Source: Pleomorphomonas sp. T1.2MG-36
GTDB lineage: Bacteria; Pseudomonadota; Alphaproteobacteria; Rhizobiales; Pleomorphomonadaceae
Direction of reading: 5' to 3'
Assembly (NCBI RefSeq): GCF_950100655.1
Contig: NZ_CATNLY010000001.1
Coordinates: 186,001-250,000 of the forward strand
DNA length: 64,000 nucleotides
Shown here: piece after piece, positions 5,602 through 58,169 of the stretch
How the letters are laid out: each line of letters opens with the position of its first letter
Position numbering within the stretch: the stretch's first letter is position 1
Made by a program: the position numbers and the translations under genes
The notes under the pieces: generated by a model
Databases searched by the model: none
The model's input: only the letters and a program-made list of their open reading frames with translations
Told to the model about the DNA's origin: nothing

Positions 5602-5817
5602 TCACTTGCTCGCCATCGCCCACTTGATCAGTGTTGGAGCGTAGGTCGAAACCGCTCCACCAATGAACAGCAGAAGGCCGAGCAGCAGCTTTGCCCCTTT
5701 CGCCTGATCGAGCAGGCTATTGAGGTGTTCGACTGCATCGGCGAGCCGCCGGATATCCTCCCCCATCTGTTCGACCTTCACTTCAAGCGCGATCACCTTG
5801 TCGCGGGTATCGTCCAC
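5602..5817 (-). CDS. Small coiled-coil membrane protein, holin-like
   Basis: A 71-residue protein: an N-terminal heptad-type helix (IALEVKVEQMGEDIRRLADA) and one C-terminal membrane helix (LLLGLLLFIGGAVSTYAPTL). This N-coil plus single-helix design is common among small phage proteins next to endolysins. It is the last gene of the minus-strand lysis module, after the spanin genes, so a holin or lysis-accessory role is likely but not shown by any specific motif. Confidence 0.6.
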   Translation of the reverse strand: MDDTRDKVIALEVKVEQMGEDIRRLADAVEHLNSLLDQAKGAKLLLGLLLFIGGAVSTYAPTLIKWAMASK

Positions 5818-5881
5818 GTCAGCCCCCTGCTTTGTGTGAGTGGACGGCAGGGCGCCCTGCCCCGCCGCCAGGATCGAGCGG

Positions 5882-6103
5882 TCACCGCGACCGCTTGATC
5901 ATCTCGTCATTGCCAAGGATTCGCCGTAGTGCGGCCGGGTCGGTCTCGGCGAGACAGACGGCCGCCGCCGGCTGAAGAGGCGTGACGAGCTTCAGCCCGT
6001 CACCGAGCCGGCTGGTTGCCGGATTGCAGGCTGAGACAGCCAGCGCCGCCGCCGGCACGGCGACACAGATCCTCAATCGTCGCCCGATCGAGCTTTTCAT
6101 CAA
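5882..6103 (-). CDS. Rz1-like outer-membrane spanin lipoprotein
   Basis: A 73-residue protein with a basic N-terminus, a hydrophobic stretch and the lipobox AVSAC, giving a predicted lipoprotein of about 50 residues. Its start lies inside the Rz-like gene in another reading frame, an overlap of about 100 bases typical of Rz/Rz1 pairs. It would be anchored in the outer membrane and pair with the inner-membrane spanin to fuse the membranes in the last step of lysis. Translation may start at the second Met (6100). The mature part is proline- and alanine-rich, as in other Rz1 proteins. Confidence 0.72.
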   Translation of the reverse strand: MMKSSIGRRLRICVAVPAAALAVSACNPATSRLGDGLKLVTPLQPAAAVCLAETDPAALRRILGNDEMIKRSR

Positions 6104-6284
6104 TCACCACCCTTTCCCGGTGAGCTTCGAGGGCGTTGGCATTCTGCCGGGCAACCTCGGACGCGGCGCCGGCCGCGTAGATGCGCCAAGCGGCCAAGCC
6201 GAGCCCGGCCGCCAGCGCGAGGAGGAGGAGAAGCCGCCAGTCGCTCTTGACGAAGGCGAAGGCGGCGCCGAGAAGGCCGGTCAC
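6000..6284 (-). CDS. Rz-like inner-membrane spanin
   Basis: A 94-residue protein with an N-terminal membrane anchor (WRLLLLLALAAGLGLAAWRI) followed by a helical, charged periplasmic segment (VARQNANALEAHRERVVIDE). This is the standard inner-membrane spanin plan. The start codon overlaps the endolysin stop (ATGA). Its 3' half contains the start of the Rz1-like gene in a different frame. Confidence 0.72.
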   Translation of the reverse strand: MTGLLGAAFAFVKSDWRLLLLLALAAGLGLAAWRIYAAGAASEVARQNANALEAHRERVVIDEKLDRATIEDLCRRAGGGAGCLSLQSGNQPAR

Positions 6285-7129
6285 GCCAGGGCCTCGGCGA
6301 GTTCAGCCCGGCGCCGACGCGCCCACCAGCCGTAGACGGCGCCGCCGATCGTCAGCACGGCCGAGACCACGACGATGCCGGCGACGATGTTGCCGATGGT
6401 CGCGCTGCCGGCGGCAAGCGGGGTGAGTTGCGTTTGCGCCGTCTGGAGTGCGCCGACGATGGCGCTGCCGCCGATCGCGCCGCCACCGGTCACCGCATCG
6501 GCAAGCGCCGCCGAGGGCGCCGCCTTGGCGTCGGAGGGAAGCGCCTTGGCAGCACCGGCCGCGTCATAGACAACTTCCGGACCGACCGAGCCGCGCGCCC
6601 AGGCCTGCCCCACGGCGAGCACCTGCCGGAGGCGGTTCGTCCAGCCCTTGCCGAAGGTCGACCACGTCTTGAGCGCCTTCAGGAAGGCGTCGCGAAGCTT
6701 GAGGATGCGATCGATCAGCGCGTCATGGTCATTGACGGCGGCGACTGCTTGCAGCGTCTGCGGCCCGATCAGGCCATCGACACGATCGAGGCCGAGCGCG
6801 CGCTGGAGCCACTTCACCGATTGCGCCGGGCCGGAGTTGACCGCGCCATCGAAGACGACGAAGCCGACGCCAGGCGGCAGGCTGTCGCCCTTGATGAGGT
6901 TCCAGTAGCGGCTTCGATAGATCGCCCTCACCTCGTCATCGGAGATGCAACGGACACTCTGCCGGGCGGCGCCGACCGATTTCCGATAGGTGTCATAGAC
7001 GGCTTGGGTAACGCCCTTCATGGTGGCGCGGCCGGGGTCTTTGGGGTGGTTTACGAAGCCGCCCTCAAGGATGAGTTCCTTGGCGAGTGCGCGGTCGAAT
7101 TCAGCAATAGTCACGGGCTGTCTCCTCAC
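6281..7129 (-). CDS. Phage endolysin, GH108 family, with C-terminal membrane helix
   Basis: A 282-residue peptidoglycan hydrolase. The N-terminal domain carries the GH108 (N-acetylmuramidase) pattern LEGGFVNHPKDPGRATMKGV at about residues 21-40, with the catalytic Glu in the EGG motif. A second, peptidoglycan-binding-like segment follows (VVFDGAVNSGPAQSVKWLQR, then GLIGPQTL). The C-terminus has a membrane helix near 245-268 and a basic tail (WWARRRRAEL), so the enzyme may be held in the inner membrane until lysis. It heads the lysis operon, overlapping the spanin gene. A terminator upstream isolates it from the tail genes. Confidence 0.86.
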   Translation of the reverse strand: MRRQPVTIAEFDRALAKELILEGGFVNHPKDPGRATMKGVTQAVYDTYRKSVGAARQSVRCISDDEVRAIYRSRYWNLIKGDSLPPGVGFVVFDGAVNSGPAQSVKWLQRALGLDRVDGLIGPQTLQAVAAVNDHDALIDRILKLRDAFLKALKTWSTFGKGWTNRLRQVLAVGQAWARGSVGPEVVYDAAGAAKALPSDAKAAPSAALADAVTGGGAIGGSAIVGALQTAQTQLTPLAAGSATIGNIVAGIVVVSAVLTIGGAVYGWWARRRRAELAEALA

Positions 7130-7155
7130 AAAAAAACCACCCCGAAGGGTGGTTG
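7129..7155 (-). terminator. Rho-independent terminator upstream of the lysis genes
   Basis: Read on the minus strand: ACCACCC, loop TTCG, GGGTGGT, then a run of T. It would stop transcripts coming from the tail-fibre genes just before the endolysin start, implying that the lysis operon has its own promoter or depends on antitermination. Confidence 0.75.
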
Positions 7156-7182
7156 ATGGCGAAATTCTCCCGTTAACGGGGC

Positions 7183-7422
7183 GTGTCAGAAACCTTGGTG
7201 TGGAATCATCGGCTCGTCCGCAGCTACACGGGCAGAAGGATGGTGTTTACGATGGTGATGATTGGCTACGGTCGCATTGTTCAAGGCCGCAGAACATACT
7301 TGGTCTCATTCACCGGGCAGAAGGTCGACAGCTTCAGCTCATATGGCGAAGCAGTAGAGTTCGCGGCGTCCCTATGTGACGGACTTGGCTACACGGGAAT
7401 GTATGTGGGCACGAGGAGCTGA
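7183..7422 (+). CDS. Possible small hypothetical protein in a 360-base gap
   Basis: The region 7156-7518 between the endolysin and tail-assembly genes has no clear minus-strand gene. On the plus strand a GTG-initiated frame of 79 residues contains LVWNHRLVRSYTGRR, then YGRIVQGRRTYLVSF and EAVEFAASLCDGLGYTGM. The composition is protein-like, but there is no recognisable domain, the strand is opposite to its neighbours and the ribosome site is weak. It may be a small cargo gene or chance. Confidence 0.25.
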   Translation: MSETLVWNHRLVRSYTGRRMVFTMVMIGYGRIVQGRRTYLVSFTGQKVDSFSSYGEAVEFAASLCDGLGYTGMYVGTRS

Positions 7423-7518
7423 GCCCTTTGCATCGAGCCGACGCGAGGGGGCGAACCCCATGCCCACAAAAACCACCTCAACCGGCGGGCATCGGTCATT
7501 CGGTGGTGTTGTGGCGGG

Positions 7519-8049
7519 CTATTCCGGCCAGACGATCACCGCTGCCGCGCTGATGGCTTCGGCGCTCTCCGCCGCGTCGATCGCCGCCTTGGCTTCGAGG
7601 CGAAGACGTTCGATCTCGGCACTCTTGATCTGCCAAGCCGCATGCATCTCGGTCACCACACGGGCGACGGCCTCGGCGGTCGCCCCGGTGATGCCGACCT
7701 CCGCGAAGATGTGCGGGCACTCGGCGGCCGTCAGGCTGGCGTCGGCGAGATAGGCTTTCGCCTCCGTGAGCTTCTGCTGGTAGGCCATGGCTTGCCCGGC
7801 ACCCGGCGTGATGTAGGTCAGGCGGTAAGCCTCGGCGGAGGCATCCACGGCGGCCTTCGCCGAACCGCGGAGATCTTCGAGCGGCACTGACGGACCGGCT
7901 TGCGGCGCCCAGCTCTCGCCATCGACCGTCCATCCGATGCCGACCCCTTCCGGACCGAGAACTGCTCCGAACTCGATCGGGTCGGCATCGTCATCCAGCA
8001 CGATGGCGTTGACCACCACGCCGGCCTCAATGATGTATCCGGTTTTCAT
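7519..8049 (-). CDS. Phage tail-fibre assembly / chaperone-like protein
   Basis: A 176-residue protein. The N-terminal part (GYIIEAGVVVNAIVLDDDAD) resembles the start of tail-fibre accessory proteins, and the C-terminal half is helical (AYRLTYITPGAGQAMAYQQK) with a long Ala/Glu coiled coil ending in VIVWPE. It directly follows the tail-fibre gene; the ATG at 8049 has a GGGAG ribosome site eight bases upstream and almost touches the fibre stop. I prefer it to an upstream start inside the fibre gene. Such proteins usually help fold or attach the fibre. With the fibre truncated it may no longer act. Confidence 0.6.
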   Translation of the reverse strand: MKTGYIIEAGVVVNAIVLDDDADPIEFGAVLGPEGVGIGWTVDGESWAPQAGPSVPLEDLRGSAKAAVDASAEAYRLTYITPGAGQAMAYQQKLTEAKAYLADASLTAAECPHIFAEVGITGATAEAVARVVTEMHAAWQIKSAEIERLRLEAKAAIDAAESAEAISAAAVIVWPE

Positions 8050-45390: not shown

Positions 45391-46635
45391 ATGACAATGA
45401 AATCTGCTGCCGCGCGCGCCGCACTGGTCGGCGGGCTGCTGCTGACCGGGACCAGCCTGGCCTCGGCTGAGACCCTCACGTTCTGGATGCTGAACTATAG
45501 CTCTCAAGCTTCAGCCGATATCTGGGCCAAGCTCGTATCCGACTTCGAGGCTGCCAACCCTGGCACCAAGGTCACTATCGTCAACCGCGGCACCGACGAC
45601 CACAAGACGGCCATCCGCGTCGCTGCCGGTACCGACAAGGGCCCGGATATCTATTTCATGTGGGCCGGTCTGGGCCTCGGAGGCGAGTATGTGAAGGCTG
45701 GCCTCAGCCTGCCGCTCGACAAGTACTACGAGAAGTACAAGTGGGACGATGAGCTGATGCCGGCGGCACTTTCGTTCTCGCGCATGTACGCCGGCGGCCG
45801 CCACGGAGTACCGTCGACCTTCCGCGGTGAGGCGCTCTATTACAACAAGGCGCTGTTCGAGAAGGCCGGCATCACCTCGCTCCCGGCGAACTATGATGAG
45901 ATGGTCGCCAGCGCCGAGAAGCTGAAAGCGGCAGGCATCCCGGCAATTACTTTTGGCGGCACCGTCAACTGGCACGTCATGCGCCTGATGGACGTCATAC
46001 TCGAATCGAAATGCGGCGCCGAAAAGCACGACGCGCTGAAGGAAATGACTGCCAAATGGTCCGAAGAGGCCTGCGCGGCGGCCTCCTTCACGGAACTCGA
46101 GAAGTGGGGCGAGAACTACATCCTGTCGCCGTTCATGGGCATCGACGACTCTCAGGCGTTCAACCTGTTCGTTGCCGATCGCGCCGCGATGGTTCTTGAA
46201 GGCGACTGGCTGGTGGGCATGCTGGACGAGGCCGGCAAGCTTGACGATATCGACTTCTTCCCCTTCCCGACCGGAACCAACCGCCTCTATGGCTTCGCCG
46301 ACTACAACTACGTGAGTTCGAAGAGCAAGAATCCTGACCTTGCCGCGAAGTTCCTCGACTACCTCGCTTCGACGCCGGTCCAGCAGGAAGCGCTGGGCTC
46401 GTTCGGCACGACGTCGGTGAACAAGAATGTCGTCTACGGCGAAATGCGGCCGCTCGACAAGAAGTGGCTCGACGTCTTCAACACCTACAGTGAGGTCTAC
46501 CTCAACGGCGACCAGGCCTTCCCGCTCGATGTGACGACGGAGTATTTCCGCGTCATCAACGAGGTGGTGAGCGGCAACATGACGCCCGCCGATGCCGTCA
46601 AGGCGATGCAGACGTTCATCGACAACAAGGGCTGA
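45391..46635 (+). CDS. Oligosaccharide ABC transporter substrate-binding protein
   Basis: A 414-residue CUT1 binding protein with a signal peptide (ALVGGLLLTGTSLASA). The mature start is ETLTFWMLNYSSQASADIWA, with GPDIYFMWAGLGLGGEYVKA, RGEALYYNKALFEKAGI and DYLASTPVQQEALGSF, all standard for the family. The glycosidase in the same operon suggests a plant-type oligosaccharide as ligand. First gene of the operon; ribosome site GGAGGAA. Confidence 0.9.
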   Translation: MTMKSAAARAALVGGLLLTGTSLASAETLTFWMLNYSSQASADIWAKLVSDFEAANPGTKVTIVNRGTDDHKTAIRVAAGTDKGPDIYFMWAGLGLGGEYVKAGLSLPLDKYYEKYKWDDELMPAALSFSRMYAGGRHGVPSTFRGEALYYNKALFEKAGITSLPANYDEMVASAEKLKAAGIPAITFGGTVNWHVMRLMDVILESKCGAEKHDALKEMTAKWSEEACAAASFTELEKWGENYILSPFMGIDDSQAFNLFVADRAAMVLEGDWLVGMLDEAGKLDDIDFFPFPTGTNRLYGFADYNYVSSKSKNPDLAAKFLDYLASTPVQQEALGSFGTTSVNKNVVYGEMRPLDKKWLDVFNTYSEVYLNGDQAFPLDVTTEYFRVINEVVSGNMTPADAVKAMQTFIDNKG

Positions 46636-46714
46636 TCCTCCCTCCACAGCCCGATGCGGCCGGCCCCAGTTGTGCCGGCCGCTCTTCGTTCACGACGCGG
46701 CGAGGAGGTGTGCC

Positions 46715-47614
46715 GTGGCCAATAGAGCCATCCTGTCAGATACCCGCATCCATACCGCGCTTCTCCTGGGGCCGGCCCTGATCATCTATGTCGTCTTCGC
46801 CGTTTTTCCGATGCTTGACGTCATCTGGCTGAGCGCCTTCAAGTGGAACGGCCTCGACCCGGTGAAGGAGTATGTCGGCGCGACCAATTACGTCGACATC
46901 TTCACCAAGGATCCGGTGTTCTGGGTGGCCTTCAGGAACACCGTCATCTGGACCGTCCTGTCGGTTTCCATTCCGCCGATGGTCGGGCTCGCGCTGGCGC
47001 TGGGCCTCAACCAGCCGATCTTCGGCCGCAATTCGCTTCGCGCCGTCTACTATCTCCCGGTCATCATCGCCCCGATCGCCGTCGCGACCATGTGACGTTG
47101 GATGTACAATCCATTCTTCGGCCTGTTCGGCCAGATCATGACCTTGCTCGGCCTTGGCGCCTATGTGCCGGACTGGCTCGGCAGCCGCGACGTGGCGCTC
47201 TACTCGGCCTTTGCCGCCCACGTCTGGCAGTCGGTCGGCTTCTCGATGGTGCTTTTCCTCGCCGGCCTGCAAGAGGTCAACAGGTCGCTGGTCGAAGCTG
47301 CGCGCATCGACGGTGCCGGCCGTTGGGCCGTGTTCCGCTACGTGACGCTGCCTGCGCTGCGTACGACGCTGACCATCGTGCTGGTGCTCGCCATCATCTC
47401 TTCGCTCAAGGCCTTCGATATCGTCTATGGCCTTACCGGCGGCGGCCCCGCGCAGTCGACGCAGATGCTGGCACTCTGGGCTTTCACCCAGTCGATGCAG
47501 ATCTTCGATTTCGGTCGCGGCAGTGCCATCTCCGTCGTCCTGCTCGCCGTAACGCTCGCCGTCGTCATTCCATACATGCGCTGGAGCCAGAAGCGCGAGG
47601 AGGCCGCGCAATGA
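46715..47614 (+). pseudogene. ABC sugar permease interrupted by an in-frame TGA
   Basis: A CUT1 permease of 299 codons from GTG 46715 (ribosome site GAGGAGG). The protein is continuous except that codon 127 (47093-47095) is TGA where family members have Trp: ...IAPIAVATM-stop-RWMYNPFFGLFGQ. The rest, with the EAA loop NRSLVEAARIDGAGRWAVFR, remains in the same frame to 47614. A single G-to-A change in TGG explains it. Unless read through or a sequencing error, the transporter lacks one permease half; the fragment from ATG 47102 could be made separately but would be missing the first helices. No SECIS-like or selenocysteine context is seen. Confidence 0.85.
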
Positions 47615-48483
47615 CGTCCAACCCGGCCCCCTTCGCCGACGAGACCATCATCAAGCCGCCGCGCGACTGGGTGCTGGTCGGCCTGTGGATCTCGCTGGTC
47701 GTCGTCGCGGCGATCTGGATCGCCCCCTTCGTCTTCATCGTCTTCACTTCGCTCAAATCGACGGCGCAGGTGACGACGACCAGCGCCTTCGCGCCGCCGG
47801 CGGACCCGCAGTTTGTCAACTACGCCAAGGCCTGGGCGCGTGGTCGCTTCGATATCACCTTCGTCAACTCGGCGATCATCACCGCCATCAAGGTACCGCT
47901 CGGTCTCTTTCTGTCGGCCATGGCTGCCTATGCACTGGCCAAGATACCGATGCGTTTCGGAAAACTGATCCTGCTGCTGATCCTGTTCGGAACCATGATC
48001 CCGTTCCAGGTAATGCTGGCGCCGATCTTCACGCTGGTGAACGGCCTGGGGCTGATCGATACCTATCCCGGCGTCATCCTGCCCTATCTGGCCTTCGGCA
48101 TACCCTACCAGGTGTTCATCCTGCACGGCTTTTTCCGGAACATCCCGCAGGAACTCAGCGAAGCGGCTCGCATCGACGGCGCCTCTCACTTCGTGACCTT
48201 CCGGCGCGTGTTCCTGCCGGTATCCCTGCCGGTAATGGCGGCTCTGTTCATCCTCGACTTCGTTGCTACCTGGAACGAGTTCGCCATGGCGCTCGTCCTG
48301 CTGCAGGATCGGGAGATGTGGACCTTGCCGCTCGGCCTTTCCGCCTTCCAGGGGCAGTTCTCGCGCGACTACGGCCAGCTCAACGCGGCGATCGTCATGA
48401 CCGTGCTGCCCGCCACCATCGTCTACCTGATCTTCCAGCGCTATTTCGTGTCCGGCCTGACGTCCGGCGCCGTCAAGGGCTGA
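47611..48483 (+). CDS. ABC sugar permease, second subunit
   Basis: A 290-residue CUT1 permease (MalG type) with six helices and the EAA loop FFRNIPQELSEAARIDGASH. The start overlaps the preceding stop (ATGA). It would heterodimerise with the interrupted permease before it. Complete and unremarkable in sequence. Confidence 0.9.
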   Translation: MTSNPAPFADETIIKPPRDWVLVGLWISLVVVAAIWIAPFVFIVFTSLKSTAQVTTTSAFAPPADPQFVNYAKAWARGRFDITFVNSAIITAIKVPLGLFLSAMAAYALAKIPMRFGKLILLLILFGTMIPFQVMLAPIFTLVNGLGLIDTYPGVILPYLAFGIPYQVFILHGFFRNIPQELSEAARIDGASHFVTFRRVFLPVSLPVMAALFILDFVATWNEFAMALVLLQDREMWTLPLGLSAFQGQFSRDYGQLNAAIVMTVLPATIVYLIFQRYFVSGLTSGAVKG

Positions 48484-48507
48484 AGCCTCAACCGGGAAAA
48501 CAAGAGT

Positions 48508-50022
48508 ATGTCCAAGCAGAACGTGTCCAAGTGGGATCTCTTTGAGGCCAGCTTCAGCGGCCCCGAGGCCGGGAACCCTTACCTCGGCGTCAGCTTCGAG
48601 GCGTTTTTCAAACAGAACAGCCGCGTCGTGCGGGTGCCTGGCTTCTACGACGGGGCTGGCACCTACAAGGTGCGCTTCATGCCCGACAACGAAGGCGAAT
48701 GGACCTACACCACCATTTCCAACGTTGCCGCACTCGACGGGCAGACTGGCGCCTTCAGCGTCAAGGCGCCGGCGGCGGGGTGTCACGGTCCCGTCCATGT
48801 CGCCAATCAGTTTCATTTCGCCTACGTCGACGGCACGCCTTATCTCCCGTTCGGCACGACGAGCTACGCCTGGACGCATCAGCCTCTGGAATTGCAGGCC
48901 GAAACGTTGAAAACGCTGGCCGGCACGCGGTTCAACAAGATGCGCATGACCGTCTTCCCGAAGGACTATCCGTTCAACGTCAACGAACCGCTGTTCGACA
49001 TTTTCGAGCGCGACGAAGAGGGCGAACTCGATTTCGATCGGCCGAACCCGCTCGCCTTCCGTCATTTCGAAACGCAGGTAGCCGCCCTTTGTGATCTCGG
49101 CATTGAAGCCGATATCATCATCTTCCACCCCTACGATCGTTGGGGGTATTGCGAGATGTCGGCCGAACAGGATTATCGCTTCGTCGCCTACCTCACCGCA
49201 CGCCTTGCCGCCTACCGGAACGTCTGGTGGTCGCTCGCCAACGAATACGACTTCCTGCTCAACTCGAAGCCGATGTCGCAGTGGGACCGCTATTTCCAGA
49301 TTATCGAGGAAAACGACCCCTACCGGCATCTCAAGTCGATCCACAACGGCGACGTCAAGGCCAACTACGACCATCGCAAGCCCTGGGTGAGCCATGTCTG
49401 CATCCAGAACTGGGACGTCAAGCGCACCCAGGAGTGGCGCGATGCCTATGGCAAGCCGGTGGTCAATGACGAGCCGGAGTACGAGGGCAACATCCTTCTG
49501 TCCTGGGGCAACATTTCGGCAGAGGAGCTCGTCCACCGCTACTGGATCACGCTGTTGCGCGGCGGTTACGCGGGCCACGGCGAAACCTTCATGCACCCGG
49601 AGGACATCCTGTGGTGGGCCAAGGGCGGCGTGCTGCACGGGGAGGCCTGGACGCGGATCGGCTTCCTGCGCGATCTTCTGGAGCAGGACGTGAAGAAAGG
49701 CCTCACGCCTCTCGCCCCATCCGACAACTGGCCGTGGAGCCGCGTTTCCGGCGCCAGCGACGGCGACGTCGTCTACATCTATCTCGGCGAGCATCAGCCG
49801 GTCATCTGGGCGCCGGGGCTGCCGACCGAGCCCGGCGACTACGAGGTGGATGTGATCGACACCTGGAACATGACGGTCATTCCGGCCAAGATCGTCGATG
49901 CGCCGGCCAACCATCCCACCCGGCATGGTGCGCAGACGCGGCCGAGGCGGCCGGACGCGGTGTTTGCCGTCGAACTGCCCGGCAAGCCGCATCTCGCCAT
50001 CCGCGTTCGTCGACGCCGTTGA
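48508..50022 (+). CDS. Cytoplasmic glycoside hydrolase (DUF5060/DUF4038/DUF5605 architecture)
   Basis: A 504-residue protein without a signal peptide. The N-terminal beta domain (NPYLGVSFEAFFKQNSRVVR, then YKVRFMPDNEGEWTYTTIS) matches the DUF5060 type. The central barrel of the apiosidase-like DUF4038 class has the likely acid/base in WWSLANEYDFL and the likely nucleophile in VNDEPEYEGN. The C-terminal part (GDVVYIYLGEHQPVIWA) resembles DUF5605. Located between the permease and ATPase genes, it should cleave the imported oligosaccharide in the cytoplasm. The precise linkage is unknown. Confidence 0.8.
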   Translation: MSKQNVSKWDLFEASFSGPEAGNPYLGVSFEAFFKQNSRVVRVPGFYDGAGTYKVRFMPDNEGEWTYTTISNVAALDGQTGAFSVKAPAAGCHGPVHVANQFHFAYVDGTPYLPFGTTSYAWTHQPLELQAETLKTLAGTRFNKMRMTVFPKDYPFNVNEPLFDIFERDEEGELDFDRPNPLAFRHFETQVAALCDLGIEADIIIFHPYDRWGYCEMSAEQDYRFVAYLTARLAAYRNVWWSLANEYDFLLNSKPMSQWDRYFQIIEENDPYRHLKSIHNGDVKANYDHRKPWVSHVCIQNWDVKRTQEWRDAYGKPVVNDEPEYEGNILLSWGNISAEELVHRYWITLLRGGYAGHGETFMHPEDILWWAKGGVLHGEAWTRIGFLRDLLEQDVKKGLTPLAPSDNWPWSRVSGASDGDVVYIYLGEHQPVIWAPGLPTEPGDYEVDVIDTWNMTVIPAKIVDAPANHPTRHGAQTRPRRPDAVFAVELPGKPHLAIRVRRRR

Positions 50023-50032
50023 GGAGAAAGCA

Positions 50033-51115
<1,083 letters not shown>

Positions 51116-51288: not shown

Positions 51289-51519
51289 TCAGTGCAACTC
51301 GCCGATCACGGCCTCCGCGTTCGGTGCCATGATGGACGTGTCGAGACCGGCCTTTTCCATCTCGTCGATGACGGCGGCCAGAGCGAGGTCGAGGCAATAG
51401 GAGGTGAACTCCGCGTTCAAACTCTTCGACGTCTGCCGGGCATAGATGATCAGGCGCGCAAGGGCGGCAAATTCTTCTGTATCGGCCAAGATGGCCTTGT
51501 CGGCGGTTCTATCCAGCAT
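51289..51519 (-). CDS. Small protein of unknown function at the end of the RiPP operon
   Basis: A 76-residue, mostly helical acidic protein (EEFAALARLIIYARQTSKSL, then YCLDLALAAVIDEMEKAGLD). No signal peptide or metal motif, one Cys. It follows tfuA by 93 bases on the same strand and is probably cotranscribed. It could be an accessory, immunity or unrelated protein; I do not recognise a family. Confidence 0.55.
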   Translation of the reverse strand: MLDRTADKAILADTEEFAALARLIIYARQTSKSLNAEFTSYCLDLALAAVIDEMEKAGLDTSIMAPNAEAVIGELH

Positions 51520-51612
51520 CTCAGTACCCTTCCTTGCCCACGAAACTGCGACAACGGAGGGGACATAACCAAGCCGACCGTGACAGGGCCGTTACAGGCG
51601 AGATACATGGGG

Positions 51613-52323
51613 CTACCTCTGGGTAGCAAGCATGTCGAAATATGACGTATGCGAGAACTCCCACGTCGGCGCCCCAACAGAGCGCACGTCATCGGCCTTT
51701 TCCACTGCCTTCACAAGCGCCGCCGCGTCGATGGCTTTCTGGTCGACACGAAAGCGCCGCACCAGGACGCCGATGTCAACGCGCTCGTCCGGAGAGAGCA
51801 TCGCCGTGGCGAGGATCGCTCTCCAGGTCCGTTCCTTGTAGAAAATGGAAGACGCCGCTTCCAACAGCGCCTCTCGTTGGTGGTCACCGATCTGACCGGC
51901 TCCAAGCAGGCGGTCGAGCGTCGCCCGGATGTTGACCAAGGGTTCCGACAGCGGCGCATAGCCGAGCTCCCGCGGCGCGTGCAGAAGCGCCACCTCCGCG
52001 TCGTCCTCGACCAGACCTGCGGCATATGCTTCATAGATCGCACCAATGCCCGTCATGCCGAAAGCGGCGCATTCGGCGGCGCGTAGCGCGCCGATGCTCG
52101 CAGCTCCGAACAGACGCACACCACAAGACAGGGCGTGCAAGATTTCTTTGTGCCAGACCGCCGCCGTCGTTTCGAAATAGCCGTCGACAAGCCCGATGAC
52201 GTTGGCGCCCTCCTCCACGGCCAGAAGGATGTCTCCTTTCGCCGCGGGAGGACGCAGTTGCGTACCCTGGGACATGCGGACATCGGCGCCATGGAACGAG
52301 GGACCAGCGAATATCAGCTTCAT
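51613..52323 (-). CDS. tfuA: TfuA-like protein, YcaO partner
   Basis: A 236-residue protein with the TfuA core: MKLIFAGPSFHGADVRM, then GDILLAVEEGANVIGLVDGY and WHKEILHALSCGVRLFGAAS-IGALRAAE. TfuA proteins accompany YcaO enzymes in trifolitoxin production and in thioamide formation on methyl-coenzyme M reductase, where they are thought to provide sulfur. The start overlaps the ycaO stop (ATGA). The conserved Cys in HALSCGV could be functional. Together with the adjacent precursor this indicates thioamidation. Confidence 0.88.
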   Translation of the reverse strand: MKLIFAGPSFHGADVRMSQGTQLRPPAAKGDILLAVEEGANVIGLVDGYFETTAAVWHKEILHALSCGVRLFGAASIGALRAAECAAFGMTGIGAIYEAYAAGLVEDDAEVALLHAPRELGYAPLSEPLVNIRATLDRLLGAGQIGDHQREALLEAASSIFYKERTWRAILATAMLSPDERVDIGVLVRRFRVDQKAIDAAALVKAVEKADDVRSVGAPTWEFSHTSYFDMLATQR

Positions 52324-53516
52324 CGAAACACCAGAAGACGCGAGAGAGCCCTTGCACCGAACCGGCGCTGCCGCCGGCCCTCGGGATGTTCGAGACCCGA
52401 CACGATCATCTTCACCACCGCGAAACGATCTTCCTCGGGGTTCATGCGAACGGCAATGACGCGGCCTATCCGCCTGTCCCGCAGCCGGTCGAGAACGTAC
52501 GCCAGCATCGTCTCCACGTCGTCGCCGGGAGGACACAAGTTGCTGGAAATGCGCCCACGAGGACCGAGGCGCAGCTTCTGGCGGAGATAGTCCGACGCCT
52601 GGCTCAGGTAGACGTCATCCTCGACATCATCGCGCGTGCCGGTGATCAGGGTCAGGCGCGACTGGACGGCTTCCGTGATGGCGCGGAGCGCAGCGCGATA
52701 GGCAACGGGATGAGTTCCGCTGCCCATCGTCACATCGATATAGCGCAGGGATCGGCGCTCCAGCGCCTCGGCCGGCGACATCAGGACCGAAAAGGTCGGC
52801 ACGCCCAGATCGCTGGTCATGTCGAAGAGCTGGAGTCGAAATCCGGCGCGCTCTATCCGGTCGGTGAGCGCGCTAACGACAGTGTCGCCGAAATCGTTGG
52901 CGGATACGCAGGTCTCGGCTTGCTGCTCCACGCGCCCCAGCGACCAGAGAGTGTCGGCATCGCGCTCTATGCGTTCCAGCAAGCCATGGAAGATCGCCTC
53001 GGTCTCCGTGTTGCCGGATGCGAGCCCGTCGGACGACTGCCAGAAATGCGAGGGGCGAGTGAAGTCGAGCAGAACGGCATCGAACGGAACCCAGACGACC
53101 GCGCCGTCCATCAGGTCTCGTCCTGCGACCCAGTTCAACCGGCAAGCACGATCCATCGGCTGATGGCCGATCGCGATGAGGTCATCGAGCGGATCGCAGT
53201 GCTCGCCGGCCCTGAGAAGCTCATCGGCTGAAGCCGCCCGAGCCGGCAGGCGCGGCCGCTCCGCGCAAGCCCGCTCGAGGGCTTCCATGACGGCCGAAGC
53301 CTTGGCGTCGATGTCGGTGATGCCCTTGCCCTGATGAACGGAAAGCGCACGGGCATTCGGGCGCAAGGCGTTCCAGACCGGAACGCCGATCCGGTCCAGG
53401 CCGGTCACCTTGGCGATACGCGTGACTCCATGCTCGGCAAGAGCGGGCGTCACGCGTGCCAAGGTTTCTTCCGGACGGCACATGCGGTCCGAATAGGTAT
53501 GTCCGTTGGATGTCAC
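52320..53516 (-). CDS. ycaO: YcaO-family peptide-modifying enzyme
   Basis: A 398-residue ATP-dependent YcaO protein. The ATP/Mg motifs are complete: QGKGITDIDAKASAVMEALE (S-x3-E-x3-E type), ASGNTETEAIFHGLLERIER-DA, and AITEAVQSRLTLITGTRDD. YcaO enzymes activate backbone amides with ATP to form azolines or thioamides. The protein is not fused to a leader-binding or dehydrogenase domain, and the TfuA neighbour argues for thioamide chemistry. Start GTG 53516 (an ATG at 53486 is an alternative), 22 bases after the precursor peptide gene. Confidence 0.9.
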   Translation of the reverse strand: MTSNGHTYSDRMCRPEETLARVTPALAEHGVTRIAKVTGLDRIGVPVWNALRPNARALSVHQGKGITDIDAKASAVMEALERACAERPRLPARAASADELLRAGEHCDPLDDLIAIGHQPMDRACRLNWVAGRDLMDGAVVWVPFDAVLLDFTRPSHFWQSSDGLASGNTETEAIFHGLLERIERDADTLWSLGRVEQQAETCVSANDFGDTVVSALTDRIERAGFRLQLFDMTSDLGVPTFSVLMSPAEALERRSLRYIDVTMGSGTHPVAYRAALRAITEAVQSRLTLITGTRDDVEDDVYLSQASDYLRQKLRLGPRGRISSNLCPPGDDVETMLAYVLDRLRDRRIGRVIAVRMNPEEDRFAVVKMIVSGLEHPEGRRQRRFGARALSRLLVFR

Positions 53517-53538
53517 TTAGGTCGGACCGCAGGCGCGT

Positions 53539-53799
53539 TTAGCCGTTGAGACGGCCCGAATAGGCACTGAGACGACCGGAGAACGCCTCGCCGTTTCCTG
53601 CGAATGCCTCATCGCCGCTGTCGAGCGCCACGGCCAGATCGACGCCGGCCACGAGCTTTGCGCCCTTGTCACGGGCGGTCTTGGAAAAATCGAACGGCTC
53701 CTTGGCGGTATCCGGCAGAGCGGACACCGTTCCGTTCTCGAAATCGACAAGCCAATAGCCGGACTCACCAGAGATACCCAGAACTGCCAACTTAGCCAT
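53539..53799 (-). CDS. Candidate RiPP precursor peptide (Cys-free, repeat-bearing core)
   Basis: An 86-residue peptide with a strong ribosome site (GAGGAGA) directly before ycaO. The N-terminal part (MAKLAVLGISGESGYWLVDF, then ENGTVSALPDTAKEPFDF) looks like a folded or helical leader. The C-terminal segment is Gly/Ser-rich and repetitive: AFAGNGEAFSGRL then SAYSGRLNG, three aromatic-small-Gly units (FAG, FSG, YSG), two within a [FY]SGRL repeat. There is no Cys in the whole peptide, so thiazoles are excluded; Ser-derived oxazolines or thioamides remain. The core boundary (perhaps after the DSGDE segment) is a guess. It is the most likely substrate of YcaO/TfuA. Confidence 0.75.
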   Translation of the reverse strand: MAKLAVLGISGESGYWLVDFENGTVSALPDTAKEPFDFSKTARDKGAKLVAGVDLAVALDSGDEAFAGNGEAFSGRLSAYSGRLNG

Positions 53800-53824
53800 G
53801 TTCGTCTCTCCTCAAAAACGGGCG

Positions 53825-55785
53825 TCACCTGAAGCCCGATCTGCGCAGGCCGTCTCGAAACATGTCCATCTTCCACTTTTCGCGGATGGGCACCTTCTTC
53901 AGCCAATCGTCGACGGTAAAGTCGGGATAGATAGCGAGCGTCCGGCGCATTTCCCTCTTGGCATTGCGCTGATCGCCGAGCATGGCGTAGGCCGCAGCCG
54001 CCAGCCGCCCCGCTTTCGCCTGATCCGCCATGCGGCCGATGCAGGCGATGGCCTCTCCAAACTCTTCCAGGAAAAAGTTCGCTCCGGCCGCCGTCCACCA
54101 ATAGAGATCCGGGCACAGCGGATTGAGCTCGATCGCCCGCTTGATCTTGTCGAGGGCAAGGATGGGATCGGCCGCGTGGACCAGCGTGTCGGCGTGGTCG
54201 GCCATCAGGTCGGCGTGCGATGGCGCGCGGCTTTCCGCCTCCAGAAAGGCTTCCATGCTTTCGAAGAACTGCCCTTGATAAAGCTTGGCGACGCCGAGCT
54301 GGTGATAGCCGCCGGCATCGTCGGCGCCGATCCGGATCGCGTCCCGCGCATGAGCTTCCGCCGACAGAAGCAGTTCCTCATCGCCACGTGCCGTCAGGAG
54401 CCATTCGAGATGCTCGGTCCGCGCAAGTCCGGCGATGGCGGAGGCGTATTCCGACGTGTCGTGAAGGGCGGCGCGGAAGAACTTCCTGGCGCGGCGAATG
54501 CCGGGCAGATCGGCGACGGAAAGGCTGTGCTGGCCGAGAAGATAGTTCTGGTAGGCGGTCGGCTTCGACACCGTATGGATCTTGGCCAGTTCCTTCCTTT
54601 CGATCGAACCGGCGGTCTCCAGCACGATGCGGGCGACCAGCTCGCCATAGGTGTTGGGGAAATCGTCCGGGTGGCCGCGAAACTCTCCGACCAGAGAACC
54701 TCGTCGCCTGCAACATGGACGAGGGTCGCGTAGAGCGCCGCCTCGCCGGTCCGCTCCTGAAAGCGCGTCTCCAGAACGTAGGAAACATCGTACTGTCTCA
54801 GAAGGTCGATCTCCTCCGCCGCCATGGCGGCGATCCGCCTCGCGGTATAGGGAGCCACGATGGCCATCGTGCGGATTCGGCAGAGACCGATTGTTACGTC
54901 TTCGATCAGGCTGGATATGAGTGCCCAGTTGCGCTGTTCGTCGGGTCGCCTCGGCGGCAGCAGCAAGAGGCGCGGCAGATGCGGCCGCGATGTCGCCGGC
55001 TCCGGTTCGCGCTGGTCCGTTCGCTCCGGCGCCACGCTGACGGTGGCGACCCTCTTTTCCTCGTCGTTGAAAAGCAGACGGGCGAACCGAAGCATGTCTT
55101 CCGAAGGCTGGGTGTTGAGCTCGGACCACAGTTGCTGCCGATAGCGATCGTAGATGAGGCGAGCCTGCGACAATCTCCGGTCCTTGGCGTAAACCCGCAT
55201 CAGAACCTGATGGGCGACATCGCTATAGGGATCGAGCTCGATGAGCCGCGCGGCGGCGGCCTTGATCGACGCTGCGTTCTGACGCGACAGCACGCCCGCC
55301 GCCTCTTCCAGAGCGGAAGCGAACTCGGCCAGCCAGAAATCGCGCCGTTCGAGAAGCCAGAGCTGGCCCGTTTCCGAAGGGATATCGAAGTCGGCGAGGA
55401 ACTGGCCCGACATGTTGCGCAGAAAGGTCTCGAGGCGCGCGACCGAATCCGGGACAGGCTTCGGCTGCAACTCCTCGAAATCGAATCTGATGTCATCTCG
55501 GCAGAGCACGATGTCGGCGGACTCGATGTCGAGAAAGGTTGCCCCCAACTCGCGCTGGCGGATCCTGACCCGCGACAGAAGCTGGCGGAGGTTGCCAAGC
55601 GCCTTGGCTCCGCCGTCTTCGCCTTCCCCCCAAAGGAACGAGGCCAGTTCGGCTCGGGAAACCCGACCGGATGGACGGAATCCGAGAAAGACGCTTGCAA
55701 TGAGTCCTTTGTCAGGGAACGTGGCCGGCTGACCGTCGCTCCCCGTCAACCGCAGTTCGCCGAAGGTTTTCAGTCCGAACGGCAC
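53825..55785 (-). pseudogene. SARP/BTAD-TolB-TPR transcriptional regulator with a frameshift
   Basis: Read on the minus strand: an OmpR-like DNA-binding domain (residues 1-95), a bacterial transcriptional activation domain (FWLAEFASALEEAAGVLSRQ, then DPYSDVAHQVLMRVYAKDRR), a TolB-type domain (ISSLIEDVTIGLCRIRTMAI, then YDVSYVLETRF) and TPR helices (AGGYHQLGVAKLYQGQFFES). Continuity breaks at about 54679: one frame ends sensibly with EVLWSESF, the next resumes with RGHPDDFPNTYGELVARIV. One missing base in TTC-CGC-GGC would explain it. The full protein would have about 650 residues. It lies just upstream of the precursor and probably activates the RiPP operon; as sequenced it would lack the TPR half. 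A sequencing error is possible. Confidence 0.82.
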
Positions 55786-55821
55786 GCCGGCCCTCTCCTT
55801 GGCTTGAAAACGCTTCGAGGC

Positions 55822-56268
55822 TCAGTTGGAGCGCAATCCACGGAAATCCGCATCGATCGAACGGCTCGCGAATGATGTCTCGCCATCATCGGCGAGCAGC
55901 TTCACGAGTTCGACGATGGACCGCCTGACTTTTGCGCTCCTGATGCGAACGAAAGCTTTGTTGAGCGCTACACCGTCCTGCGTCAGCAGCGACGCGTCGA
56001 GGACATCCGACAGGGGATCGGTCTCCTGGTGGGCATGATCGACGATAGCCTCGAAGAAGAAGCCCACGGGAACGCCCAAGACGTTGGCGATCGCCTGAAG
56101 GCGGGACGCGCTGATCCGGCTCATCCCCTTTTCGTACTTCTGCACCTGCTGGAACGTAACCCCCAACTGCTCTGCCAGCTTGCTCTGGCTCATTCCCAAG
56201 AGAAACCGGCGCATCCGTACGCGCGCACCAACGTGGATGTCGATCGGATTAGGCGACTTGACGGTCAT
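55822..56268 (-). CDS. XRE-family regulator, first gene of the RiPP locus
   Basis: A 148-residue protein with an N-terminal XRE domain: VRMRRFLLGMSQSKLAEQLG, then VTFQQVQKYEKGMSRISASR and LQAIANVLGVPVGFFFEA. The C-terminal part (RIRSAKVRRSIVELVKLLAD) is the helical tail common in Rhizobiales regulators of this kind. It ends 36 bases before the SARP start and has the same orientation, so both may form one transcript. Confidence 0.85.
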   Translation of the reverse strand: MTVKSPNPIDIHVGARVRMRRFLLGMSQSKLAEQLGVTFQQVQKYEKGMSRISASRLQAIANVLGVPVGFFFEAIVDHAHQETDPLSDVLDASLLTQDGVALNKAFVRIRSAKVRRSIVELVKLLADDGETSFASRSIDADFRGLRSN

Positions 56269-56609: not shown

Positions 56610-58169
56610 ATGACCGGGGCCGATTGCGTATTGGGCGTGGACTTGGGCACGTCATCGGTGAAGGCCGTGCTTGTCGACCGGGACGGTCGCATTCTCAGCC
56701 AGGGCCGAGCCGAGTATGGTTTCGTCAGCCTTCATAGCCTTTGGGCTGAACAGTCGTCGGACGTCTGGCTGCACGCCTTTACGGAAGCGGTGCGGGAGAC
56801 GCTTCTCCGCTCCGGCGTATCTGCGCAAAATGTAAAGGGCATGGCGGTGTCGGCGATCGGCGGCGGCACCGGCATACCTGTCGACGTCGGCATGCAGCCG
56901 ATCCGTCCCTGCCTGCTCTGGCTCGATCGCCGCGCCAAGATCGAGAGCGAGCGCGTCCGCCAGATGATCAGCGAGGAGGATCTCTACGCCATCACCGGCA
57001 ACGGCGCCGACTCCTATTTCGGCTTCACCAAGATCCTCTGGATCAAGAACCACGAGCCCGAGGTCTGGTCGCGCATCAACTATTTCCTGCCGCCAAATGC
57101 CGACATCATTTACCGCCTGACCGGTGAAATCGCCATCGACCACTCGCAGGCCTGTAATATTGGCGGGGTCTATGATCTCGGCAAACGAGCCTGGTCCGAG
57201 GAAATGGCCGATATCCTGGACATCCCACCCTATTTCTTTCCGGAGCGGCTTGTCGGATCGCAGGAAGTCGTCGGGCGGCTACACAAGGCCGGAGCCCGCA
57301 TGCTGGGGCTGGTGGAGGGGATGCCGGTCTGCGCCGGCGGCGTCGATGCCGCAGTCGCCACGCTCAGGGCCGGCGTCGTGCGGGAAGGCCAGCACGCCGC
57401 CATGCTGAGTTCGTCGACCTGTTGGGGGTTCATCCATTCCAGCGCCGGCCGCCTCCCCGGCCTTGTCTCGATGCCCTACGTGATCGACAGCGAGACGCTC
57501 ACCTATTCCTACGGCGGTTCGGCGACATCGGGCTCGGTCGTCCAGTGGTTCCGCGACAATTTTGCCGACAACGAGCGCTTGGTGGAGTCTCTCACCAGCG
57601 GCGGCAAGCGGCGCATCTCGGCGTTCGATCTTTTGGACGAACATGCCTCGACCATTCAGCCCGGTTCCAATGGCTTGATGGTACTGCCCTATTTCATGGG
57701 CGAGCGCAGTCCGATCTGGGACGTCGACGCGCGCGGCACTATCACCGGGTTGACGCTCAACCATACCAAGTCGCACCTTTATCGGGCGATGCTGGAAAGC
57801 GTGGCCTATGCGCTCAAGAACAACATCGACTACGGCAGCGCCGCCTTTCGAGGCCTGGAGGATCAGCTGACCGTCGTCGGAGACGTTTCGAAATCCGATC
57901 TCTGGGTGGAAATCATCACCAACGTCACCGGCCGGCCGGTGCGCGTTCTGCCCAACAGCGGCAAGGCGGCCTATGGCGCAGCGGTGATCGCCGCCTACGG
58001 CATCGGCATGATCGACCGGCAACAGATGGGCGACTGGCTCACCGTCCAGCCGGCGCGGGTGCTGACGCCCGATGCCGCCGCGAACGTCGTCTACGAGCGC
58101 AGCTTCGAGAACTTCAAGCGGCTCTACGAGCACATGAAGTCCTACTTCCCGACGGCAACCGAGACCTGA
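56610..58169 (+). CDS. FGGY-family carbohydrate kinase (xylulokinase-like)
   Basis: A 519-residue sugar kinase. CVLGVDLGTSSVKAVLVDRD is the phosphate-1 motif; PCLLWLDRRAKIESERVRQM, AGGVDAAVATLRAGVVREGQ and the FGGY signature region LPYFMGERSPIWDVDARGTI follow, with VVGDVSKSDLWVEIITNVTG near the end. The sequence is closest in style to xylulokinase-type FGGY enzymes, but the substrate cannot be fixed; it could supply the ribulokinase step missing from the arabinose operon. It converges with an AraC-type regulator. Confidence 0.87.
   Translation: MTGADCVLGVDLGTSSVKAVLVDRDGRILSQGRAEYGFVSLHSLWAEQSSDVWLHAFTEAVRETLLRSGVSAQNVKGMAVSAIGGGTGIPVDVGMQPIRPCLLWLDRRAKIESERVRQMISEEDLYAITGNGADSYFGFTKILWIKNHEPEVWSRINYFLPPNADIIYRLTGEIAIDHSQACNIGGVYDLGKRAWSEEMADILDIPPYFFPERLVGSQEVVGRLHKAGARMLGLVEGMPVCAGGVDAAVATLRAGVVREGQHAAMLSSSTCWGFIHSSAGRLPGLVSMPYVIDSETLTYSYGGSATSGSVVQWFRDNFADNERLVESLTSGGKRRISAFDLLDEHASTIQPGSNGLMVLPYFMGERSPIWDVDARGTITGLTLNHTKSHLYRAMLESVAYALKNNIDYGSAAFRGLEDQLTVVGDVSKSDLWVEIITNVTGRPVRVLPNSGKAAYGAAVIAAYGIGMIDRQQMGDWLTVQPARVLTPDAAANVVYERSFENFKRLYEHMKSYFPTATET

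Follow-up and report, generated by a model that had tools for sequence, protein, structure and literature searches.

What do the YcaO and TfuA proteins of a compact cassette in Pleomorphomonas sp. T1.2MG-36 modify, and what would the product be for? The cassette lies on the minus strand (51289-56268) of the 64,000-nucleotide stretch analysed here (contig NZ_CATNLY010000001.1, positions 186,001 to 250,000; hereafter the window). Its six closely spaced genes run in the order HTH_3 regulator, BTAD/TPR regulator (in two frames), precursor peptide, ycaO, tfuA and a gene for a 76-residue protein. Judging from gene content and sequence kinship, the cassette is probably (rough probability 0.72) a thioamide-forming locus for a ribosomally synthesized and post-translationally modified peptide (RiPP), which would yield a short C-terminal peptide with no dedicated exporter or protease.

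The precursor gene (53539-53799, minus strand) occupies the same place before ycaO in 8/8 loci of the same genus or of close metagenome-assembled genomes (MAGs; L002-L009), and its ATG is preceded by GAGGAGAG, a good ribosome site. The 86-residue product lacks Cys and begins with a leader motif (residues 1-30, MAKLAVLGISGESGYWLVDFENGTVSALPD, 53710-53799) that is defined by a profile and predicted, at moderate confidence, to form a beta hairpin. It ends in a core region (residues 65-86, AFAGNGEAFSGRLSAYSGRLNG, 53542-53607) that closes with YSGRLNG, the last unit, SGRLNG, being the C-terminal hexapeptide at the conserved place. A first-pass annotation of this DNA had claimed a small, Cys-free peptide gene with a good ribosome site ahead of ycaO and tfuA, and the coordinates, the Pfam matches to the enzymes and the translation bear this out. 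The three aromatic-small-Gly units that it counted are present, a number reached in 32 of 20,000 shuffles of the peptide. Its [FY]SGRL repeat holds for the window, which has two copies (0 of 20,000 shuffles), but the two-fold repeat is not strictly conserved, and it is one C-terminal unit that stays fixed. Among genus-level relatives the terminal AYSGR[LF] is kept in 12/12 and the first [FY]SGRL in 8/12. The window precursor matches no Pfam or NCBIfam model at an E value of 1.

The C-terminal unit was followed in a core set of 121 precursors, consisting of the window sequence and P0002-P0122 without P0016, which looks chimeric. P0001, a near copy of the window precursor, and P0123, which has no SG core, were dropped. 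The 121 sequences are related and not independent cases, and the statistics describe the SG type. With the strict unit defined as [SAGN]-G-x-[FYLMVH]-[DEMSNQRAV], at least one unit occurs in 120/121 precursors, the window included; this was a test set in advance, and the C-terminal conservation among homologues that the first-pass annotation had envisaged is found. Cys is likewise absent from 120/121. One strict unit is present in 75 precursors, two in 33, three in 8, four in 2, five in 2 and none in 1. The last unit, taken without the fifth place of the motif, starts exactly six residues from the C-terminus in 102/121, a constancy that points to the free C-terminal peptide as the part that counts. 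The residue before the Gly of the last unit is Ser in 72 precursors, Gly in 45 and Ala in 4, where SGGF-type cores are ambiguous in register by one residue and the motif takes the second Gly. Three residues after that Gly stands Asp in 87 of the 121 and Glu in 16.

The leader has the consensus MAKxxVxGxxGExGxWxxDxxxGTV, followed by GVDLAV, and a 64-position profile of it finds 165 proteins at an E value of 0.1 or below. Among the 120 of these matches that are listed, to which a length limit admits all but the longest SH-type precursors, the product names are 'hypothetical protein' or 'Uncharacterized protein' and the genera include Rhizobium, Neorhizobium, Pararhizobium, Agrobacterium, Shinella, Ensifer, Phyllobacterium, Mesorhizobium, Hoeflea and Pleomorphomonas. 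All organisms named among the matches listed are presumably Hyphomicrobiales. By the same profile, a leader-bearing precursor stands just upstream of ycaO in 15/43 loci of the order outside the genus, and the leader is present in 7/10 plasmid loci (twice in one of them) and in 0/20 loci from other orders of the class; all scanned loci were obtained through TfuA or YcaO, with free-standing precursors outside the scope of the scan. Over 385 genomes of the class, the leader profile A2 matches the own genome only (1/385), a weak negative with at most 16 candidates scored per genome.

In the YcaO tree, 28 leader-type rows together with L068 and L082 form one clade (support 100/97), whereas L050, among the weakest leader matches, falls outside it. 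The clade thus comprises 30 loci, of which L068 is cut by a contig end and L082 is decayed. Deeper in this clade the cores read SDAASHHYFPNRG (L070), SEAASHYYYPSR (L072), RSDAASHIFYG (L086), RSEPAAHILYG (L092) and SAASSHNWGEP (L049). Since the core changes altogether there while the leader stays, the family is defined by its leader, with the core swapped. The structural model of the precursor has a hairpin leader and a disordered core, at a mean predicted local distance difference test score (pLDDT) of 50.9, too poor for a fold search. On neighbouring YcaO branches, L066, L071 and L078 encode precursor-like proteins with other long repeats (AGVQSQ many times, or the QQAQQG type), preceded by a leader resembling a distant cousin (IGxRGAGxxLxK). 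In L113, L115 and L116, what precedes ycaO is a 136-residue protein that shows no obvious repeats, has a cousin-like leader (LYIIGDRESGVLFVK or similar) and likewise follows a BTAD/TPR regulator.

The two enzymes are encoded downstream of the precursor on the same strand. The ycaO gene (52320-53516, minus strand) has a GTG start, encodes 398 residues and matches Pfam YcaO at an E value of 1.2e-65; tfuA (51613-52323, minus strand) overlaps it, encodes 236 residues and matches Pfam TfuA at 1.5e-45. A genome search finds one YcaO and one TfuA. The best curated relatives are the McrA-glycine thioamidation protein for YcaO and its partner for TfuA, and the closest solved structures are MJ1094 (6pe3, E value 7.9e-34) and a TfuA (6xp8, E value 4.7e-34), respectively. 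The RiPP-type YcaO-TfuA locus of the first-pass annotation is therefore supported, with enzymes nearest to the McrA-glycine pair. The window YcaO has the near-invariant family residues E78, E81, E181, E184, Q285 and R287 (79 rows), and the window TfuA has the near-invariant S76 and K196 (79/80 rows each). A TfuA Ser-Lys pair that hydrolyses ThiS-COSH is reported in PMC13185837, citing Liu 2021, and by analogy S76 and K196 may be that pair. Within the clade, tfuA is present in 29/30 loci.

YcaO chemistry consists of ATP-driven activation of a backbone amide followed by attack of sulfide, which gives a thioamide. In the mechanism proposed for the cassette, the conserved N-terminal leader would be recognised by the enzymes or by a partner, while the C-terminal core is predicted to be unstructured. 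TfuA would supply sulfide from a thiocarboxylated ThiS-type carrier, as its relatives suggest, and YcaO, using ATP, would swap a backbone carbonyl oxygen for sulfur at the Gly of S-G-x-[LF] units or right beside it. General peptidases of the cell could then trim the modified protein to a short thioamidated C-terminal peptide, roughly AYSGRLNG, and the adjacent HTH and BTAD/TPR regulators would control expression. Thioamidation at or beside the core Gly is most likely the step catalysed, because tfuA is adjacent, the enzymes are near the McrA pair, and hydrophobic and, in most cases, acidic residues come after the Gly.

Several observations weigh against this reading or limit its reach. Both enzymes score below the curated equivalog cut-offs of the McrA families (226.5 bits against a cut-off of 365 for YcaO, 186.8 against 235.2 for TfuA). 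Clade cores of SH/AH or other type, with no SG unit, occur in L047, L048, L049, L070, L072, L075, L086 and L092, and because several cores lack the unit, Gly cannot be the target in all clade members; the modified residue within the core is a guess. The locus L119 (Sinorhizobium meliloti Ak57 pSymB, 5750-7534) retains the precursor, ycaO and the small gene, while tfuA is absent from the locus. Read at face value, the SH-type cores argue against a uniform Gly target and L119 against a strict need for tfuA. The BTAD/TPR regulator is broken in the window genome itself. TfuA is missing from 3/14 genomes of the genus, one of them 86% complete, and the system is therefore dispensable. The L119 precursor ends VFSGHFDG.

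Two regulator genes head the cassette. The HTH_3 gene (55822-56268, minus strand) lies just outside the span 51289-55785 and has a relative in 19/30 clade loci. The second regulator is split in the window into an N-terminal part with BTAD (54679-55785, minus strand) and a TPR-like C-terminal part in a different frame (53828-54685, minus strand), with the break near 54.68 kb. The two parts match in one frame in 8/8 loci L002-L009, unbroken open reading frames (ORFs) of 654-687 residues are found in L003, L004, L006, L007 and L008, and the break in the window is either real or an assembly error. The domain matches are BTAD plus TPR, the latter weak in L003. This regulator is present in 28/30 clade loci, against 19/50 other YcaO-TfuA loci when counted at any place. 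In 27/30 clade loci, against 10/49 others, it is encoded on the same strand as ycaO and ends no more than 2 kb upstream of that gene, and those ten others fall in the neighbouring branch of the YcaO tree. The clade loci that lack it are L068, cut by the contig end, and L082, which has lost the precursor too. In L082 (order family f23), ycaO, tfuA and the small gene persist; the regulator is gone, and a remnant at about 5690-5800 is what is left of the precursor.

A single regulator stands ahead of two precursor-ycaO pairs in L118 (2296-7898, Rhizobium rhizogenes plasmid pC5.7c). The pairs are in tandem, with cores VSGGFMDG and FSSHMF/FSGHYY, and the first pair has only a weak partial TfuA match (31%).

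The last gene of the cassette (51289-51519, minus strand) encodes a His-ended protein of 76 residues with homologues in related loci, and is a conserved cassette member. From the span it shares with the precursor, the first-pass annotation had listed the precursor, ycaO and tfuA correctly and missed this gene and the frame-broken regulator. The small protein is found in 26/30 clade loci against 4/50 others, by a profile built partly from loci later scanned with it; the four other loci are all of a sister type with a 46-47-residue precursor. Among the exceptions, L049 has a weak match (E value 0.013), the contig of L047 ends, and none is present in L070 and L072. In L086 and L092 the small protein is encoded elsewhere in the locus. 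The protein is predicted to be a helical hairpin (mean pLDDT 80.8), and a PDB fold search gives no match at an E value of 0.001 or below, its list consisting of varied helical bundles. The chain ends in His or Cys in 45/55 database matches and in 18/23 rows of A4, all of them related sequences; weak members such as those of L049, L075, L086 and L092 have a different last residue. A terminal Cys is found in Cohaesibacter, Peteryoungia, Shinella (L120) and one Rhizobium (L124), a terminal His in Pleomorphomonas and other Rhizobium.

Within the genus, conservation is higher for the precursor and the small protein than for the two enzymes. Protein identity averages 89% for the precursor, 94% for the small protein, 80% for YcaO, 75% for TfuA and 78% for the HTH protein. 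Over pairs of ten loci, the median ratio of nonsynonymous to synonymous substitution (dN/dS) is 0.10, 0.037, 0.124, 0.158 and 0.124, respectively, values that come from simple pairwise counts and of which only the ranking is used. The short precursor gene has a median dS of 0.67, compared with about 1.1-1.2 for ycaO, tfuA and the HTH gene, and the higher protein identity of the precursor may come partly from this lower dS. The precursor protein is identical in the window, L002, L003 and L007 despite a dS of 0.48-0.64.

The nearest YcaO among the fetched loci is that of the MAG Pleomorphomonas sp. CSMAG_1210, at 86% identity. TfuA occurs in 11/14 genomes of the genus (own included), 14/20 of the family sample, 44/297 genomes of the order and 20/372 of the class, own included. 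Loci were fetched for 43 of 48 TfuA places outside the genus in the order sample, among them the contig-cut L068 and L082 with its precursor remnant only, and for 20 of 23 places outside the own genome in the class sample. YcaO matches at an E value of 1e-30 or below are found in 247 plasmid records, from which ten loci were fetched; phage records hold no YcaO relative at 1e-5. At an E value of 0.01, the PADLOC defence models match none of the precursor, YcaO, TfuA, the small protein, the N-terminal part of the window regulator and the intact regulator of L003, and the HTH gene matches only HTH-containing models.

The near-constant regulator bears on what the product would do. It is possible, if doubtful, that the modified C-terminal peptide is an intracellular signal sensed by the co-encoded TPR-bearing BTAD regulator, the peptide being made and sensed within the cell or imported by a general oligopeptide importer. 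A short C-terminal peptide paired with a TPR regulator would resemble the RRNPP peptide-sensing systems. In support, the regulator lies upstream in 27 of the 30 clade loci and is absent only where the contig is cut or the precursor is lost as well, the core is fixed relative to the C-terminus, the precursor is under purifying selection, and the 22 most widespread ORF groups of 25 loci include no recurrent exporter family. However, regulators beside biosynthetic operons are common and do not imply binding of the product, relatives of this one occur somewhere in 19/50 other YcaO-TfuA loci, single loci have other transporters nearby, and in the window the regulator is frame-broken while the precursor and enzymes are intact. 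The RRNPP regulators are moreover HTH-TPR proteins of Gram-positives, whereas the present one combines BTAD with TPR, belongs to a different phylum and would read a modified peptide. An elaboration of this idea is speculative: a Gram-negative peptide-signalling module in which a thioamide in the last residues would make the peptide peptidase-resistant, the C-terminal hexapeptide would be read intracellularly by the BTAD/TPR regulator, and the core would define strain groups while the leader stays constant. The small protein would be its dedicated partner, with a chaperone, a metal or sulfur handler and a counter-signal as candidate roles. It is also rather doubtful that the product is a narrow-spectrum antibacterial against related bacteria with the small helical protein as its immunity protein, although thioamidated RiPPs are described as antibiotic, antiproliferative or cytotoxic (PMC8120280), the small protein is the usual partner (26/30), and in two Rhizobium records the label 'peptide antibiotic resistance protein' or 'toxin' is given to relatives of the regulator or of TfuA. 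Those annotations are transferred names, no exporter recurs, and among the five genes median dN/dS is lowest for the precursor and the small protein, unlike what an arms race would produce, although the precursor differs little from ycaO in this respect. The constrained precursor and small protein, the near-constant TPR regulator, the loss of regulator and precursor together in L082 and the absence of a recurring exporter would favour a role in signalling or inside the cell over one as a weapon.

Two further alternatives concern the chemistry and the fate of the precursor. YcaO enzymes modify intact proteins (PMC13063428, PMC5589413), and the precursor, leader included, is conserved over its whole length within the genus, so that it could be a small protein kept full-length and thioamidated as such, in the manner of McrA or ribosomal protein uL16. 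This is unlikely, as its predicted fold is poor with a disordered C-terminal part, and genera differ widely in both repeat number and core sequence. A linear azoline peptide, with oxazolines made by YcaO from the Ser of the SG units and TfuA incidental, is very improbable. Such a product would suit the 103/121 precursors in which Ser, Thr or Cys occupies at least one of the two positions preceding the Gly of the last unit, as well as the clade locus L119 with no tfuA. The other 18/121 have none of these residues at the two places (e.g. SAAGGFMDG), tfuA is otherwise a constant member of the clade loci, and no cyclodehydratase partner, recognition domain or dehydrogenase is matched among the window proteins scanned.

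Thioamide formation and peptide release as proposed here can be set beside several known systems. Thioamitides (thioviridamide type) also depend on YcaO and TfuA. They carry Cys-derived rings and dehydrated residues, whereas the window precursor and nearly all its relatives have no Cys, and no further tailoring gene is seen in the cassette. The first-pass annotation could not assign the product to a known class, yet the type has a precedent: the simplest thiovarsolins arise from precursor, YcaO and TfuA alone (VarA/VarY/VarT), with no specific protease gene, and their authors consider it plausible that endogenous peptidases free a stable thioamidated piece (PMC6511847). Thiovarsolin precursors likewise combine a leader with a variable number of Cys-free core repeats; relatives of the window precursor carry 1 to 5 units of their own motif. 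Unlike the present system, with its SG-x-[FLYM]-[DEN] core, thiovarsolins are actinobacterial with an APR/GPR core, and the available text of PMC6511847 makes no mention of a BTAD/TPR regulator or a small helical protein. The archaeal McrA-glycine system provides the closest curated and structural relatives of the enzymes, and the thioamidated Gly465 lies in LGFFGFD, where Gly followed by an aromatic and an acidic residue (FFG465FD) resembles many of the present cores, e.g. GGFMD and SGVFD. The substrate there is a large enzyme and here a small precursor, and the curated cut-offs are not reached (PMC5589413).

Rhizobium and its relatives are rich in YcaO-TfuA clusters, and as of a 2021 survey the known YcaO-TfuA products were all actinobacterial (PMC8120280). 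Rhizobium and Agrobacterium are among the dominant groups of that survey (Malit et al. 2021), and since Rhizobium clusters dominate it, the present precursor family was probably included; the leader, the C-terminal unit, the small protein and the regulator are not described in the portion of its text covered here (PMC8120280). A literature search limited to Creative Commons-licensed papers without their supplements found no description of the leader. The defined precursor family would give a concrete substrate for each such cluster, with a shared leader that marks an enzyme clade and a C-terminal core usually at a fixed place. It also brings to attention two partner genes, the regulator and the small protein, for which the literature covered gives no role, and it opens the question of whether bacteria associated with plants use thioamidated peptides as signals. 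The name tfuA derives from Rhizobium anhuiense T24, and like that founding tfuA locus the rhizobial cassettes of the present and the 46-47-residue sister type carry TfuA; trifolitoxin itself is described as azol(in)e-modified and has its own tfx cluster, unlike the present cassette (PMC9670871).

The sister cassettes of Rhizobium (L122, L125, L087 and L091) have the regulator, ycaO, tfuA and the small gene together with an unrelated-looking precursor of 43-47 residues that ends ALRFR or ALKFR. L122 and L125 adjoin NAD-synthesis genes, and one sister-cassette record labels the regulator and TfuA 'toxin'. Such cassettes are possibly the setting of the founding tfuA.

By ORF reading, the flanks of the window cassette are a sugar ATP-binding cassette (ABC) importer with a hydrolase-like gene (46592-51115) and a sugar kinase (56610-58169). 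The HTH gene, regulator, precursor, ycaO, tfuA and small gene lie beside the same kinase in 8/8 loci L002-L009, and the importer side is shared by 5/8. Reading of the window ORFs shows no exporter or protease gene in the cassette, as the first-pass annotation had also found, and none is seen among the 22 most widespread ORF groups, in which sugar-importer genes recur. The 3-kb contig L047, whose genome is placed in the same genus as the window, holds a very different, SAH-type cassette, which reflects either horizontal transfer or contamination.

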